A program made the position numbers and the translations under genes. This document shows positions 4,130 to 33,780 of a stretch of DNA of 49,752 bases, piece after piece. The DNA lies in the NCBI GenBank assembly GCA_021299375.1, contig JAJTGR010000016.1, forward strand, positions 1-49,752. Reading direction: 5' to 3'. Under the pieces are notes generated by a model. That model had not been told where the DNA came from. It did not search any database and worked only from the letters and a program-made list of their open reading frames with translations. Every line of letters begins with the position of its first letter. Within the stretch, counting starts at the first letter, position 1. This DNA is from Gemmatimonadota bacterium. Lineage in GTDB: Bacteria > Gemmatimonadota > Gemmatimonadetes > Gemmatimonadales > Gemmatimonadaceae.

Positions 4130-5353
<1,224 letters not shown>

Positions 5354-5381: not shown

Positions 5382-6815
5382 TCACCGCCCGCCCGGTCGT
5401 CCGCCTCCCCCCGCCGCGCCGCCAGCCGGCGCCGACATGCCCGGCATGCCTCCCCCCGTCATGCTGCGGAAGCGGTCGTTCTGCTGCTCCCGCTTGGCCT
5501 GCAGTGCGCCCACGGCAAGCAGTGCGACCTTGTCCCCTTCAGCGAGGCCCGACAGCACTTCGCTGTAGTCGTAGTTGGATGCCCCGAGTCGTACCACGCG
5601 CGGCGCGTACCGGCCGGGCGCCGTCTCCACAAACACGAGAGCCGTTCGGGCGCGGGGACTCCGTCCGCCGCTTGCCGCCGTCGCGCCCGTTCGCTCGCGC
5701 TCATTCGCTCGCGCACCCTGGCTCGCGCCGCTACGGCTCGCGCCGCTACGGCTCGCGCCGTCCCGCGTCGCGACTGCTTGGGTCTGCGCGGCGTCACCAG
5801 ACCGCGCCCCGCCGCCGTTCCCCCGTAGGCTCGCCTGCTGCGCCTGCACCTGCGCCGCCACGCTGTCCGGGTTCAGCTTGAGTATGCCCGCCGCGATGGC
5901 CGCTTCACGCAGCGTACGGACCGCGTCGTTGGCCACCGCGAGCACGTTCTCGCGTCGGTCCACGAGCAGCGAGACTTCGCCGTTCATGCCCGGCTTGAGC
6001 AACCCCTCCTTGTTGTCCAGCGACACGATGACCGGGAACATCGTCACGCTCTGCTGCACCACCGCCTGCGGCTCGATCTTCTCGACGGCGCCGAGGAACG
6101 GCCGGTCCGGGTACGCATCGACCGTGACCCGCGCCTCCTGGTCAGCGCGTACGCTGCCGATATCGGTTTCGTTCACCAGGGCGCGCATGCGCACCTTGCC
6201 GAGATCGGCCATGCGGAGCAGGGTGGTGCCGCCGGTGACGGAGCCCGTGGCCGAGGCGATGACCTGGCCCAGCGCGACCGGCTTCTCGATGATCGTGCCG
6301 CCCACCGGTGCCACCACGGTGGCGTCCTCGAGCCGCTGCTTGGCGAGATCCACATTCGTGGTGGCCCGCACGATTTGCCCCTGGGCCTGGGTGAGCTGCA
6401 GTTGGGCCGTCTCGTATTCCTGCGTGGTGATGACACGCTGCTTGTAGAGGTCGTCCGACCGCTGCCGCTGCGCCTGTGCAACTTCGAGGCTGGCCTGGGC
6501 GCTACGCAGGTCGGCCATCGCCTGGTCGTACTGGTTCTTCACGTCGCGCGTGTCCACCTGCACCAGCAGGTCGCCAGCGTTGACCTGCGAGCCGGTTTCC
6601 ACCGGCATCTTCACGATCTGTCCGGACGCCTTGGACTTCACCTCGATCACGTTGATCGGCTCCACGGCGCCGGTGGCCTGGGCATCGACGACAATGGTAC
6701 GGCGTTCGACGGCGGCCGTCGGGATCGGCGCGCTGGCCTCCTGCTTCTGGCCACAGGCGGCGAGTGCGACCAGCAGCGCACCCGCCAGACGCGGACCGCT
6801 GCGGGGGCGTGCCAT
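5382..6815 (-). CDS. Lipid-anchored HlyD/RND-type periplasmic adaptor
   Basis: A 477-aa membrane-fusion protein. The N-terminus is a lipoprotein signal ending in LAAC (Cys21), so it is probably anchored in the inner membrane. A barrel-sandwich half (about 45-75), a long coiled-coil hairpin (about 75-150), the second lipoyl half (VVAPVGGTIIEKPV) and a beta-barrel follow; this is the MacA/AcrA order. An unusual low-complexity Ser/Gly/Ala/Arg/Glu insert near residues 350-385 coincides with a DNA minisatellite. The tail after about residue 440 is Met/Gly-rich. The ATG shares one base with the upstream TolC stop (TGATG), which indicates translational coupling. It should link the FtsX permease to TolC. 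The family is certain; the substrate is unknown. Confidence 0.92.
   Translation of the reverse strand: MARPRSGPRLAGALLVALAACGQKQEASAPIPTAAVERRTIVVDAQATGAVEPINVIEVKSKASGQIVKMPVETGSQVNAGDLLVQVDTRDVKNQYDQAMADLRSAQASLEVAQAQRQRSDDLYKQRVITTQEYETAQLQLTQAQGQIVRATTNVDLAKQRLEDATVVAPVGGTIIEKPVALGQVIASATGSVTGGTTLLRMADLGKVRMRALVNETDIGSVRADQEARVTVDAYPDRPFLGAVEKIEPQAVVQQSVTMFPVIVSLDNKEGLLKPGMNGEVSLLVDRRENVLAVANDAVRTLREAAIAAGILKLNPDSVAAQVQAQQASLRGNGGGARSGDAAQTQAVATRDGASRSGASRSGASQGARANERERTGATAASGGRSPRARTALVFVETAPGRYAPRVVRLGASNYDYSEVLSGLAEGDKVALLAVGALQAKREQQNDRFRSMTGGGMPGMSAPAGGAAGGGGRPGGR
5690..5767 (-). repeat. Minisatellite inside the adaptor gene, core GCGCGAGC
   Basis: Five units begin at about 5690, 5704, 5719, 5734 and 5749, so the spacing is 14, 15, 15 and 15 bp. 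On the coding (minus) strand each contains GCGCGAGC, and the three left-hand units contain GGCGCGAGCC. Because one spacing is 14 bp, the repeat is read in two frames: SGASR-type peptide in most units and ANERERTG in the others. The DNA core, not the peptide, is therefore what is conserved. Confidence 0.85.
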
Positions 6816-8158
6816 CAGAGCTCCCGGCCGATGAGCGCCGACAACTGCGCGCGGGCGATACGTCCGTCGAGACGAGCCTGGATGAGGGCCTGCCTCGCCT
6901 GATTGAGCTGCGTCTGCGACGTGAGCAGGTCGAGCAAGGTCGATGCGCCCAGCGCATAGCGCTGCTGCTGGACTCGCAGGTCCTCTTCGGCGGCGGCAAT
7001 CGCCGCCAGCTGCACGGCCACCCGGGCCTGTGCGTTCTGCAAGGCACGCATCTGCTGGGTGAGCGTCTGTCGCGCGCTCAGGCGCGCATCGCGCAGCTGC
7101 GCTTCGGCGTTGCGCAGGGCGACATCGGCCTGCACCGTCTGCTGTTCACGCTGGAAGCCGTTGAACAGGGGGTACGAGAAGTTGAAGGTCATGTTCTTCC
7201 GATTGGGGTTCTGTGCGCCCACCAGGAAGAGGTTCCCACCGTCGAAGGTCCGGCTGCCTTGCGTGAAGGTGTAGAGGTACGACATGGACAGCGTCGGCAA
7301 GTACTGCGAGCGCTGCGCCCGGCGCCCGGCCTTGGCCGCTTCGTAGGAGGCTTCGGCCACCAGCACCCCGGGGCCGCGGTTCACCAGCGCCTCGAGCTCC
7401 GTTTCCGTGGGTATCGTCGGGAGCACTTCCACCGTATCGGTCAGCGAGGCCGTGACGGTCGTGGTGGATCCCACGAACCGGGTGAGCGCGGCATTGGCCA
7501 CCCGCAGGTCGTTCTGCGCCGTGAGCACAGCCAGCTGGGCGTTGCCCACCTGAATGGCCGAGCGGAGCGAGTCTGACTTGGTCGCCACACCGGCGGCGAC
7601 GCGCGCGGTGGACGCCTTGAGCTGCTGCTCCGCCTGCTCGAGCTGCGCCTTGGCGGCCGCCTCCGACTCGTGGGCGGCGAGCACGGCGTAAAACTGTTGC
7701 TTGGCCTGCAAGGCCGCGTCGAACCGTGCCTGGATGGTGCTGGCGTCGGCCACGTCGCTGCTGGCGCGCGCACGCCGAAGCTCGGAGAGTCGCCGCCCGC
7801 CATCGAACAGCTCGAGTTGCGTGTTGAACCCGTTGTTGTAGTTCCACGGGTTGCCGGTGATCGGAATCAGCTGCCCCTGGAAGAACTGCACACCCAGGGT
7901 CCGGCCGGTGGACGCGTTCATGGTCAGTGTCGGCATGTAGGAGCCGATCACGGCGCGGTGCGAGGCGCTGGCATTCCGCTCGAGGCCGCGCGCCTGCACG
8001 ACACCCGGCGCGTTGCGCTGCGCCAGCTGCACCGCTTCAGCCAGCGAGATCGGCCGCGCGCCATCCTCGGGCACTGCCGGAACCTGGGCACGCAACGGGG
8101 CGGCCACGAGGACCGCCCCGATCACCACCGCTCGGCCCATTGCACACGAACGATTCAC
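6815..8158 (-). CDS. TolC-family outer-membrane efflux protein
   Basis: A 447-aa outer-membrane channel protein. The GTG start at 8158 is chosen because it overlaps the upstream stop as GTGA and opens directly into a signal peptide (VVIGAVLVAAPLRA, cleavage near residue 24). Starts further upstream would run into the preceding gene. Two OEP repeats follow, each with long amphipathic helices rich in Ala/Gln/Arg and a short beta strand segment, as in TolC, CusC and NodT. It is coupled at its 3' end to the adaptor gene. Together with the adaptor and the FtsX permease it forms the outer-membrane part of a three-component exporter. Confidence 0.92.
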   Translation of the reverse strand: MNRSCAMGRAVVIGAVLVAAPLRAQVPAVPEDGARPISLAEAVQLAQRNAPGVVQARGLERNASASHRAVIGSYMPTLTMNASTGRTLGVQFFQGQLIPITGNPWNYNNGFNTQLELFDGGRRLSELRRARASSDVADASTIQARFDAALQAKQQFYAVLAAHESEAAAKAQLEQAEQQLKASTARVAAGVATKSDSLRSAIQVGNAQLAVLTAQNDLRVANAALTRFVGSTTTVTASLTDTVEVLPTIPTETELEALVNRGPGVLVAEASYEAAKAGRRAQRSQYLPTLSMSYLYTFTQGSRTFDGGNLFLVGAQNPNRKNMTFNFSYPLFNGFQREQQTVQADVALRNAEAQLRDARLSARQTLTQQMRALQNAQARVAVQLAAIAAAEEDLRVQQQRYALGASTLLDLLTSQTQLNQARQALIQARLDGRIARAQLSALIGREL

Positions 8159-8541
8159 CGTTTCCCCCCTCGTGCACGCGCGACACTGTCGGCGTAGCGC
8201 TGGTTGCGCTCGATCAGGCGGCGAAAGGCCGCCGTCTGGGTGCTGTCGAACGAGTTCATCATGAGAACCCGGGCACTGTCGCGCACGGAGTCGAGTGCGG
8301 GACGCACGGTCGCCATGATCTCGCGTGAGCGGGCGCGTCGCCACGCCCACACCGAGTCGACGTGGCGCCGCTGGGCGTCGTTGAGGGCCAGTTCGCGCGC
8401 GAGTTCCTGCTGCGCGTCATAGGCCGGAATGGCCGGCTTGCTCACGGCGCGCTCGGCCGCAAACCCCACGGCGCCGCCGGCGAGGAATGCGCCGAGGATG
8501 AACAGCATCGCCAGCGACTTGGAACGGGAAGACGACGGCAC
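8155..8541 (-). CDS. Spy/CpxP-like periplasmic stress protein
   Basis: A 128-aa protein with one N-terminal hydrophobic segment (LAMLFILGAFLAGGAVGFAA, residues about 10-29), acting as a signal peptide or anchor. The rest is a helical, Arg/Ala/Asp-rich domain. It carries the LALNDAQRRHVDSVW and FDSTQTAAFRRLIERN pattern typical of Spy, CpxP and ZraP proteins, which bind unfolded proteins or metals in the periplasm. Its stop overlaps the TolC start (GTGA), and its start lies 13 bp after the anti-sigma-like gene. It is therefore probably a sensor or chaperone feeding envelope state back to the sigma factor of the same operon; this role is inferred from family and context. Confidence 0.75.
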   Translation of the reverse strand: MPSSSRSKSLAMLFILGAFLAGGAVGFAAERAVSKPAIPAYDAQQELARELALNDAQRRHVDSVWAWRRARSREIMATVRPALDSVRDSARVLMMNSFDSTQTAAFRRLIERNQRYADSVARARGGKR

Positions 8542-9656: not shown

Positions 9657-10289
9657 TTACGCATCGGGGGAAGGCGTCGTTGAGGACGGGGCGGACGGCG
9701 TGGGGGCGGCAGCCCCAGCCAGGCCAAGCGCGGCGGCATCGGCCTGCATGGCGGTGAGCACGAGACCGATGTGGTCATCGAGCGGTACGCCCAGTGCCTC
9801 AGCCCCCTGCACAATGTCGTCGCGGTTCACCCCACGGGCGAAGGCCTTGTCCTTCATCTTCTTCCGGACACCGGCCACGTCCACGTCGGCGACAGCCTTG
9901 GACGGCTTCACCAACGCGCAGGCGGTAATCAGCCCGGTCAGCTCATCCACGGCAAAGAGCGCCTTGGCCATGGGCGTGACCCGCGGTACACCCGTGTACT
10001 GGGCGTGCCCCAGCACCGCCTCACAAATCTCCTCCGACCACCCGAGGGCCCGCAGGTGGCGGACCCCCTCGGCCGGGTGCTCGGCGTCAGCAGCGTGGGC
10101 ATCGTTCGGAAAGCGCTCGTAGTCGAAATCGTGGATCAGCCCGGCGATCCCCCATGTCGCCTCGTCCTCCCCCAGCCGACGGGCATAGGCGCGCATGGCG
10201 CACTCCACGGCCAGCATGTGCTTGCGGAGGGACTCGGACTGGGTCCAGTGGTGGACCAGCTGCAGGGCGTCGGCGCGGGTCGGGACCAT
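9657..10289 (-). CDS. HD-domain phosphohydrolase
   Basis: A 210-aa cytosolic protein with the HD metal motif at residues 53-54 (GLIHDFDYERF), an upstream conserved His24 and a downstream Asp in FAVDELTGLI. This is the arrangement of small HD hydrolases annotated as HDIG or HDc proteins. The substrate is unknown; relatives act on nucleotides. The ATG at 10289 was chosen because sequence upstream of it is a low-complexity run with intergenic repeats, although an open frame continues to 10385. The last 15 residues are Ala/Pro/Ser/Thr-rich. It stands alone between two operons on the same strand. Confidence 0.8.
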   Translation of the reverse strand: MVPTRADALQLVHHWTQSESLRKHMLAVECAMRAYARRLGEDEATWGIAGLIHDFDYERFPNDAHAADAEHPAEGVRHLRALGWSEEICEAVLGHAQYTGVPRVTPMAKALFAVDELTGLITACALVKPSKAVADVDVAGVRKKMKDKAFARGVNRDDIVQGAEALGVPLDDHIGLVLTAMQADAAALGLAGAAAPTPSAPSSTTPSPDA

Positions 10290-10375
10290 GGCAACAGTTT
10301 GGGGGACCAGAGGCCGGCGGACAACCGGGGGACGACGAACGGCGGGACCGACGAACAGCGGAGAACGGCAACTAC

Positions 10376-10478
10376 GGTACACCAACGGCGTAACGTGCAG
10401 GGACGTGAGCGGGATCCGGCACCCGCCGCCATCCCTCGCCCCCGATCACGTCGGTACACGTTACGCGGCTGGTGTACC
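10376..10478. repeat. Imperfect inverted repeat between efflux operon end and HD gene
   Basis: Arms at 10376-10397 and 10457-10478 (GGTACACCA near the ends, GCGTAACGTG inside) match at 20 of 22 positions when one is reversed. Similarity continues for about 20 bp more inside the arms (GACGTGA..CGGG). The loop is about 59 bp. It lies in a 208-bp gap after the EmrB stop and before the HD start, both on the minus strand. There is no T-run, so it is not a simple terminator. Confidence 0.75.
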
Positions 10479-10497
10479 GCCGTTCGCTGTCCCAGCG

Positions 10498-13066: not shown

Positions 13067-13091
13067 GTGTGAGTCCTTGGAGAGGCGGAAC

Positions 13092-13255
13092 GGCGCGAGC
13101 TAAACGGCGTGAGCTAAACGGCGTGAGCTAAACGGCGTGAGCTAAACGGCGCGAGCTAAACGGCGTGAGCTAAACGGCGCGAGCTAAACGGCGCGAGCTA
13201 AACGGCGCGAGCTAAACGGCGCGAGCTAAACGGCGCGAGCTAACGGGCGCGAGGG
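13092..13255 (+). repeat. 14-bp minisatellite GGCGYGAGCTAAAC, 11 units
   Basis: Eleven consecutive 14-bp units start at 13092 and every 14 bases up to 13232, followed by a ten-base partial unit. Units differ only at the Y (C or T) and in the last unit's tail. The array fills most of the 301-bp gap between tolC and emrA inside the efflux operon, so it would be transcribed into the intercistronic RNA. The T of TAA appears in every unit, placing stops in one forward frame. Confidence 0.97.
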
Positions 13256-13280
13256 AAGCACGCCGCAGTACGCGCGCGCT

Positions 13281-13350
13281 GGTTCGCGCCCCATGGCTCA
13301 CGCCCCATGGCTCACGCCCCCTGGCTCACGCCCCATAGCTCGCGCAGTTT
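13281..13350 (-). repeat. Second 14-bp array in inverted orientation, GGCTCACGCCCCAT
   Basis: Five 14-bp units start at 13281, 13295, 13309, 13323 and 13337. On the minus strand the unit reads ATGGGGCGTGAGCC, which contains the same GGCGTGAGC core as the neighbouring array but with another tail. The two arrays lie 25 bp apart in opposite orientation and together fill the tolC-emrA gap. Pairing of the core across the arrays could form a hairpin. Confidence 0.9.
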
Positions 13351-13367
13351 CGCAGTTACAAACGCCC

Positions 13368-16314: not shown

Positions 16315-16566
16315 CCGGGGAGCCGGAGCCACGTGGGCCCGCGTGCCCAACGCGCGGTCACCAGTACCCGAAACGATCGCCGCCCGCGCTGTGACCACGC
16401 ATGCCATCCGCAAGACGCCACGCGTGTCGTCCCCGGCCGAGTGACCATGCGCCGGTCACGGAACGGACGTCTCGGCTGTTGCGGCACGGGGCCCGAGTCT
16501 GTCCTGTCTGTACGTGCGGGCGCCTCGGCATGGCCCCGTCCCGCGCCGCGCCGTATGCTTTGGCCG

Positions 16567-16605
16567 CGTCCCTGTGTTGCGTCCCTGTGTTGCGTCCCTG
16601 TGTTG
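16567..16605. repeat. 13-bp repeat CGTCCCTGTGTTG, three perfect copies
   Basis: Perfect copies at 16567, 16580 and 16593, followed by a degenerate CCTCCCTCC. The array ends 24 bp before the DUF1800 start codon, in what should be its 5' leader. Confidence 0.95.
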
Positions 16606-16629
16606 CCTCCCTCCGTCGACGCCCACCCC

Positions 16630-27013: not shown

Positions 27014-27029
27014 GAGATGGGGGACGGCG

Positions 27030-27138
27030 GGACAGCGCGAGCGGGGACGGCGCGAGCGGGGACGGCGCGAGCGGGGACAGCGCGAGCGGGGACGGCGCGA
27101 GCTAAGGGGGCGCGAGCGATGGGGGGCGCGAGCGGGGG
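27030..27138 (+). repeat. 15-bp minisatellite with core GCGCGAGC
   Basis: Seven 15-bp units start at 27030. The first four are GGAC(A/G)GCGCGAGCGG; the later ones end in CTA, CGA and CGG. The core is GGCGCGAGC in five units and AGCGCGAGC in the other two, matching the arrays at 5690 and 13092, but the tail is different. It lies between the divergent hydrolase and HEAT-protein genes. Confidence 0.93.
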
Positions 27139-27257
27139 GGCAGACGCTCGGGAAGTCTAGACGCGGGCGGGCGCGCCCCCAACTCGGGCCGGCCGGTGCG
27201 CGCTCCGGCTTGCGCCACCGTGCCGTCCCGCCGTCCCGCGGTTACCCTCACCCGTAT

Positions 27258-33668: not shown

Positions 33669-33780
33669 GCGGGCGCCGTGAAGCGGGCGCAGCGATGCGG
33701 GCGCCGTGATGCGGGCGCCGTGATGCGGGCGCCGTGCTGCGGGCGCCGTGCTGCGGGCGCCGTGCTGCAGGCGCCGCCTT
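33669..33780 (+). repeat. 14-bp minisatellite GCGGGCGCCGTGMT, eight units
   Basis: Units start at 33669 and every 14 bases to 33767. Central units are perfect GCGGGCGCCGTGAT or the GCT variant; the first two and last are degenerate. It sits in a 609-bp gap (33443-34051) that also holds the diverged repeat copy and a terminator. I see no gene there; 33781-33990 has no recognisable feature. Confidence 0.93.

Follow-up and report, generated by a model that had tools for sequence, protein, structure and literature searches.

A tandem array within a MacA/HlyD-type adaptor gene is probably a coding member of a REP/BIME-like palindromic repeat family in a Gemmatimonas-like clade

The gene for a MacA/HlyD-type adaptor in a Gemmatimonadota genome (G000, the source of the DNA analysed here) carries a tandem array of the 8-mer GCGCGAGC. 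Taken together, our data favour, with moderate confidence, a reading in which this array is a coding resident of a REP/BIME-like palindromic repeat family that belongs to one clade of a Gemmatimonas-like genus and is spread or kept by a trans factor recognising the core. One DNA word, in varied spellings, occupies the same linkers in sister species, and the accompanying change in the proteins can thus be seen as incidental to forces acting on the DNA. Throughout, the window is the whole stretch of 49,752 nucleotides that was analysed.

Results

The array in the adaptor gene

The host gene (5382–6815, minus strand; 477 aa; Pfam HlyD_D23 and HlyD_3) sits between a MacB-type permease gene (4130–5353, minus strand; Pfam MacB_PCD/FtsX) and a TolC-type channel gene (6815–8350, minus strand; Pfam OEP), and has matches in all 61 of the 61 genomes searched. 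The array (5693–5758, minus strand) comprises five exact GCGCGAGC cores, at 5693, 5707, 5721, 5736 and 5751, with a leader-like GCGGGACG ahead of them. A preliminary description of this DNA had counted the five cores correctly but gave one spacing as 14 and the others as 15 bp; the series in gene order is 15, 15, 14, 14, with two 14-bp steps. The codon phases of the five core starts are 1, 1, 1, 0 and 2, giving GAS, GAS, GAS, ARA and ERE, so that all three frames are used.

The array peptide covers residues 353–375 or thereabouts, in agreement with the insert previously placed at about residues 350–385. ZneB (3lnn), the best solved relative by sequence, aligns on both sides, with 13 of its residues facing adaptor residues 294–393, and the array insert therefore appears to lengthen a membrane-proximal loop. 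Judged from sequence, the role of the array in the adaptor may be only to lengthen this linker, and the composition and variability of the insert suggest that it is disordered. A single-sequence AlphaFold model made without an alignment had a mean pLDDT of 45.7, too poor to use.

The preliminary description had also predicted a linker that varies among orthologues between aligned flanks, and this is what an alignment of 30 adaptor sequences returned. The stretch from about residue 322 to 395 is rich in Gly, Ala, Arg and Ser and highly variable in length, and its flanks align (the linker was compared in the first 20 sequences; the G010 orthologue ends at a contig edge). A shared peptide with synonymous changes in the DNA, which would argue against action on the DNA, was not seen. 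The linker of G021 holds GCGGAAGC, GCGGAAGC and GCGGGAGC in 15-bp steps, an array with that species' own core, and among the nine orthologues listed only G000 and G021 have at least three such cores in register (five and three, respectively). The idea that repeat DNA invades a coding region is too simple, since among the 12 orthologues from the genus that were shown in full this linker is hypervariable, and G021 carries its own array at that place.

A family of palindromic intergenic elements

The adaptor array, to which the preliminary description was confined, is a small part of a larger family. Typical members of that family are palindromic and lie between genes: a leader (GTRACKGCGNNACK) comes first, then 14-bp units in tandem, a centre, and a second run in mirror image. 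The leader follows the pattern GTRAC-K-GCG-NN-AC-K and is succeeded by units of the core plus a 6–7 bp spacer; it starts with GTRAC, and the GTAG or CGTC tag of REP/BIME sequences is absent. Leaders at both ends form terminal inverted repeats, as in MITEs. Independent loci have the leader and core in common but not the spacer.

The window contains a complete element of this kind (13079–13359), with a plus-strand leader at 13079–13100, eleven forward 14-bp units (13092–13240), a centre, four reverse units and a minus-strand leader at 13338–13359. A second element (27021–27245) has a plus-strand leader at 27021–27042, seven forward units of 15–16 bp extending to 27133, and a degenerate inverted arm on the minus strand (27224–27245). 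There is an array of a second subfamily at 33669–33776 (minus strand; ACGGCGCCCGC plus spacer, 14 bp), the core of which recurs on contigs C8, C39 and C41 of G000, and an intergenic palindrome of another, degenerate subfamily at 10289–10497, where G021 has a GCGGAAGC element at the corresponding site. A 15-bp array of another unit occupies the contig end (1–128, minus strand). Unrelated units also form arrays: a 13-bp array of GCGTCCCTGTGTT lies at 16566–16612, roughly 17 bp upstream of a called gene on the plus strand, and on contig C1 of G000 two tandem arrays directly follow stop codons (L068, 8173–8243 and 6214–6286; units GGACAGCGTCCCCCT, itself an inverted repeat, and GACGTCGTGGA).

The window holds 31 GCGCGAGC cores as against 17.8 (sd 4.35) in shuffles, none of 100 shuffles reaching 31. 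By manual count 11 of the 31 are solitary; the single core is not enriched outside arrays, nor did solitary motifs show convincing enrichment outside arrays when all stop codons were considered. Across G000, adjacent cores 14–15 bp apart number 255 compared with 2 for the reversed pattern, and in the other 99 genomes such pairs stay near the controls (top excesses, 9 against 3 in G025 and 11 against 5 in G071). A wider, cross-phylum family defined by the exact core was considered and dropped: it has at least 104 stretches, and the 80 listed are scattered over many phyla, mostly with one or two matches per contig, and were read collectively, rather than one by one, as chance or local arrays. 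Leader matches with no array beside them were found in relatives at four sites in G025, in G005, G003 and G011, at one of four sites in G049 and at one of two in G035.

In stretches not selected for arrays (the window and C1:1–160000, together 210 kb of G000), TRF reports 15 arrays with a score of at least 80, as compared with 7 in 400 kb of G029, none in 200 kb of G020 and one in 200 kb of G028; densities cannot be read from other G000 stretches because these were partly picked for holding arrays. The number and length of arrays in G000 are probably underestimated, since contigs C16, C24, C26, C27, C28, C31, C32, C42, C96 and C110 end in or near arrays.

Position and folding

With genes called by a simple caller of our own based on codon usage, 28 G000 intergenic runs had a called upstream neighbour. 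Seventeen follow the stop codon of a same-strand gene, 15 of them with 10–45 bp to the first core; three strong cases have a leader that overlaps the stop codon (offset −4). The other 11 face a gene start, as expected for the second arm of an element between co-directional genes, yet they weaken a strict stop-codon rule; seven more runs have no neighbour. A converging partner within 300 bp accompanies 11 of the 28 runs when exact cores are counted, and among the remainder several are cut by a contig end or have a degenerate second arm.

Modelled as RNA, the 13079–13359 element folds with −162.2 kcal/mol (z −6.3). The z values for elements were −6.3, −7.2 and −13.2, the last for a near-perfect hairpin in G021 (−87.6 kcal/mol). 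A single typed arm shows no folding advantage over its shuffles (z 0.33), and the same is true of one-sided arrays; the unit is thus not a 20–40 bp palindrome of the REP/BIME type. No terminator-like T run was found at the 13 kb element, and no Rfam match at the gathering score in six sources.

The core is conserved and the spacer is not

Units of the same array, compared site by site in 25 arrays with a 14-bp unit, differ on average by 0.019 in the core and by 0.220 in the spacer. Because these runs had been found by their core, the test was redone on arrays found by TRF only (period 13–16, at least 3.5 copies), of which 23 out of 31 hold the exact core; in 19 of these 23, by manual count, six or more bases of the core fall within the 8-base window of highest conservation. 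Core changes within G000 arrays fall as 0, 6, 2 and 4 at positions 3, 4, 5 and 6. A GNRA tetraloop as the defining feature of the core was not upheld, given changes outside the N and R positions, a second core with GCCC and the poor folding of arms alone.

Of 14 runs in called genes, 13 advance by multiples of 15 bp only (7/8 in G000, 6/6 in G021), the exception being the adaptor array itself; 4 of 45 intergenic runs do so. Not all eight coding runs of G000 are strong, two having just two cores and one lying in a doubtful ORF. The coding runs in the adaptor, C31 and C46 genes are one-sided, and so the coding copy is not itself palindromic as in Rickettsia palindromic elements.

Each species spells the core in its own way

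We counted same-word pairs at 14–15 bp for all 256 GC-NNNN-GC words. G000 has 183 pairs with GCGA, 6 with GCCC, 5 with GGCA and 4 with GTGA; G021 has 23 with GGAA and 4 with GGGA, and G004 has 28 with GGAA, whereas G029, G020 and G028 have at most 2 of any word among those listed. The sister species G021 and G004 use the core GCGG[AG]AGC in the architecture seen in G000, with mirror runs after stops and 15-bp runs in genes; the G021 elements resemble one three-unit consensus. As a separate observation, a palindrome in G025 (L270, contig C2) has two GCGCGAGC cores followed by GGGAGC-type units in both arms and is perhaps a further dialect.

Four array-bearing G000 genes were traced through the genus, namely the adaptor (the finding itself), an RND pump (picked after a similar array had been noticed in G003), and an HrpB-type helicase and the C46 gene, both picked without such knowledge; a fifth (C27:29944) was left out. 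Each of the four has, in one or more other species, an array spelled with that species' own core at the corresponding linker, and the peptide shifts with it (TARA to TAEA, GAS to GGS). Arrays or remnants are seen by eye in 7 of 25 RND pump orthologues (G000, G003, G004, G021, G001, G022 and, decayed, G015), confined to a group of 12 genomes with gene-tree support of 1.0, none occurring in the 13 outside; the encoded peptide is T-A-R-A in G000 and T-A-E-A in G003. The helicase carries RRLRDGASLNGAS in G000 and RRLRDGGSLYGGS in G021, the leader CTGCGGGACGGCG being common to both, and has fewer units in G003 and G001. The leaders match between species at the RND and the helicase sites alike. At the C46 gene the arrays run antisense in G000 and G004; G021, G001 and G022 have other units there, and the cores of G003 point the opposite way.

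The repeat is thus read in frame inside otherwise conserved proteins, in the manner of Rickettsia palindromic elements, and across the traced genes one word appears in differing frames in different proteins and in differing spelling in different species. Species-own cores at shared linkers imply that constraint or copying acts on the DNA. The suggestion that selection or spread acts at this level is accordingly strengthened: the same 8-mer is held in three frames in the adaptor and in other frames in other proteins, and is exchanged as a DNA word in sister species.

Gain and loss at orthologous gaps, and the search for a mobiliser

The comparison of G000 with G021 covered 50 conserved neighbouring gene pairs, and at three of these one or both species have an element: one site has an element in both, one has a G021 element opposite a 10-bp gap in G000, and one has a G021 element opposite another palindrome in G000. 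One element lies opposite a 27-bp gap in the 23 pairs of G021 and G029; the 7 pairs of G000 and G004 include one G004 element opposite a 24-bp gap and one site with cores in both (the G021 and G004 stretches compared were selected for their arrays). The 26 pairs of G000 and G029 include no such site. The gaps of 10, 24 and 27 bp correspond to element-bearing intergenic regions of 157–201 bp in the other species. The few junctions that were inspected by eye showed no evident target-site duplication.

The Y1_Tnp profile (PF01797) is matched in 11 of 37 genomes and gave no match in G000 (about 96% complete), G021, G004, G001 or G003; mobilisation by a RAYT was considered, and the lack of a match in G000 argues against it. 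The genus members that have a Y1_Tnp gene (G005, G006, G009, G013, G015 and G017) differ from those rich in core arrays. Two other repeats were noted in the genomes examined. G006 has long clusters of a different repeat of about 120 bp with ACGGCAGGAGCCCAGACGGCAGGGGC on contigs C1, C2, C4, C10, C17, C24, C26 and C28, and G029 has 8.7 copies of a 16-bp, A+T-richer unit, ACTTTTAGCGCAGTTC, with an iteron-like look (L090, 9287–9425).

Discussion

Judged from the pattern, a trans factor with a species-specific taste for the core, together with slippage, would be the most likely cause of these arrays. We propose a model in which a long hairpin would form from single-stranded DNA or RNA, as modelled, and slippage or unequal exchange would add or remove units. 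A candidate trans-acting factor (a transposase, a hairpin-processing enzyme or an RNA/DNA-binding protein) may then recognise the core and spread or keep locally spelled copies, by which the core would shift as a dialect genome-wide, and genic copies would persist only as whole codons and where a linker tolerates them. A stronger version, to which we give rather low credence, is that a change in the specificity of the factor re-spelled hundreds of units in place, intergenic and coding alike, the linker peptides being rewritten (TARA to TAEA) as a by-product. If a trans factor does set the dialect, co-variation could reveal it.

The main rival holds that mobile palindromes, specific to each species, inserted repeatedly and independently at a small number of tolerant sites, and that the dialect is just that of the last active element. 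Gain and loss at orthologous gaps would be expected from such a process, as would the resemblance of the G021 elements to one three-unit consensus, and the opposite orientation of the G003 cores at the C46 site fits repeated entry rather than change in place. However, all four of the four traced coding sites are shared, the RND and helicase leaders match between species, and the diverse G000 spacers are unlike one recent burst, so we regard repeated insertion as possible but clearly the minority reading. The elements might instead act as RNA at 3′ ends, with mirror arrays that fold in the mRNA and end or stabilise transcripts and a core selected as a processing or protein-binding motif of the GC-GNRA-GC tetraloop kind. 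This would account for the placement after stops, the strong folds, and the fact that GCGA, GTGA, GGAA and GGGA, among the commonest tetramers, are all GNRA; we nevertheless consider it unlikely, as the 13 kb element has no terminator-like T run, single arms and one-sided arrays (a form that occurs in genes) fold no better than shuffles, the array core changes beyond the N and R positions, cores with GCCC and GGCA exist, and an Rfam match is absent.

Ordinary minisatellites, arising by local replication slippage on G+C-rich seeds and tolerated in gaps and linkers, would require neither dispersal nor a trans factor, and both the unit numbers that differ between orthologues (five against three cores in the adaptor, nine against four units in the RND pump) and the arrays of unrelated units in G000, such as GGACAGCGTCCCCCT and GCGTCCCTGTGTT, are what slippage would leave. 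For the GCGCGAGC family this explanation is already hard to hold in view of the leader and core common to independent loci with different spacers, the mirror pairs and the species dialects at orthologous sites, and we judge it improbable. An uptake-signal system like the DUS of Neisseriaceae would share the dialects and the inverted pairs near gene ends, for which the part of PMC3630211 consulted offers parallels; it seems very improbable here, where cores standing alone show no enrichment (about 18 are expected for the whole window, and 11 lie outside its arrays) and there are hundreds of tandem copies, not thousands dispersed.

The reading that we prefer, a REP/BIME-like family with a core-recognising factor, can be set beside known systems, of which REP/BIME palindromes are the nearest kind. 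In the part of PMC3733652 consulted, which also mentions Rickettsia palindromic elements, REP units are 20–40 bp palindromes with a GTAG or CGTC tag, the GTAG REPs being linked to RAYT, and REP dimers or BIMEs are inverted pairs just 3′ of ORFs that may supply the stop codon, lie sometimes inside genes and form species-specific families. The G000 family is likewise intergenic, near 3′ ends and in inverted dimers. It differs in that each arm is made of non-palindromic 14/15-bp direct repeats, with a species-dialect core, another tag and no Y1 transposase found in G000; REP-like palindromic repeats without a detected RAYT bear on how such repeats spread. Searches of the literature for Gemmatimonas tandem or intergenic palindromic repeats and for Gemmatimonadetes repetitive extragenic palindromic sequences found no account of such repeats.

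Rickettsia palindromic elements are selfish-looking DNA carried within protein genes and read in frame. Such in-frame carriage is alike here, but the copies in our genes form one-sided tandem arrays, have a core particular to the species and sit in linkers. The DUS, as described in the same part of PMC3630211, resemble our family in that the short core varies from one related species to another and forms inverted pairs, whereas the G000 core is not enriched singly and lies in tandem arrays, without the very high number of dispersed single copies that marks a DUS. BOX elements of pneumococcus are modular, with a variable number of internal units. Our elements share this modularity and variable unit number, but differ in unit size, symmetry and host.
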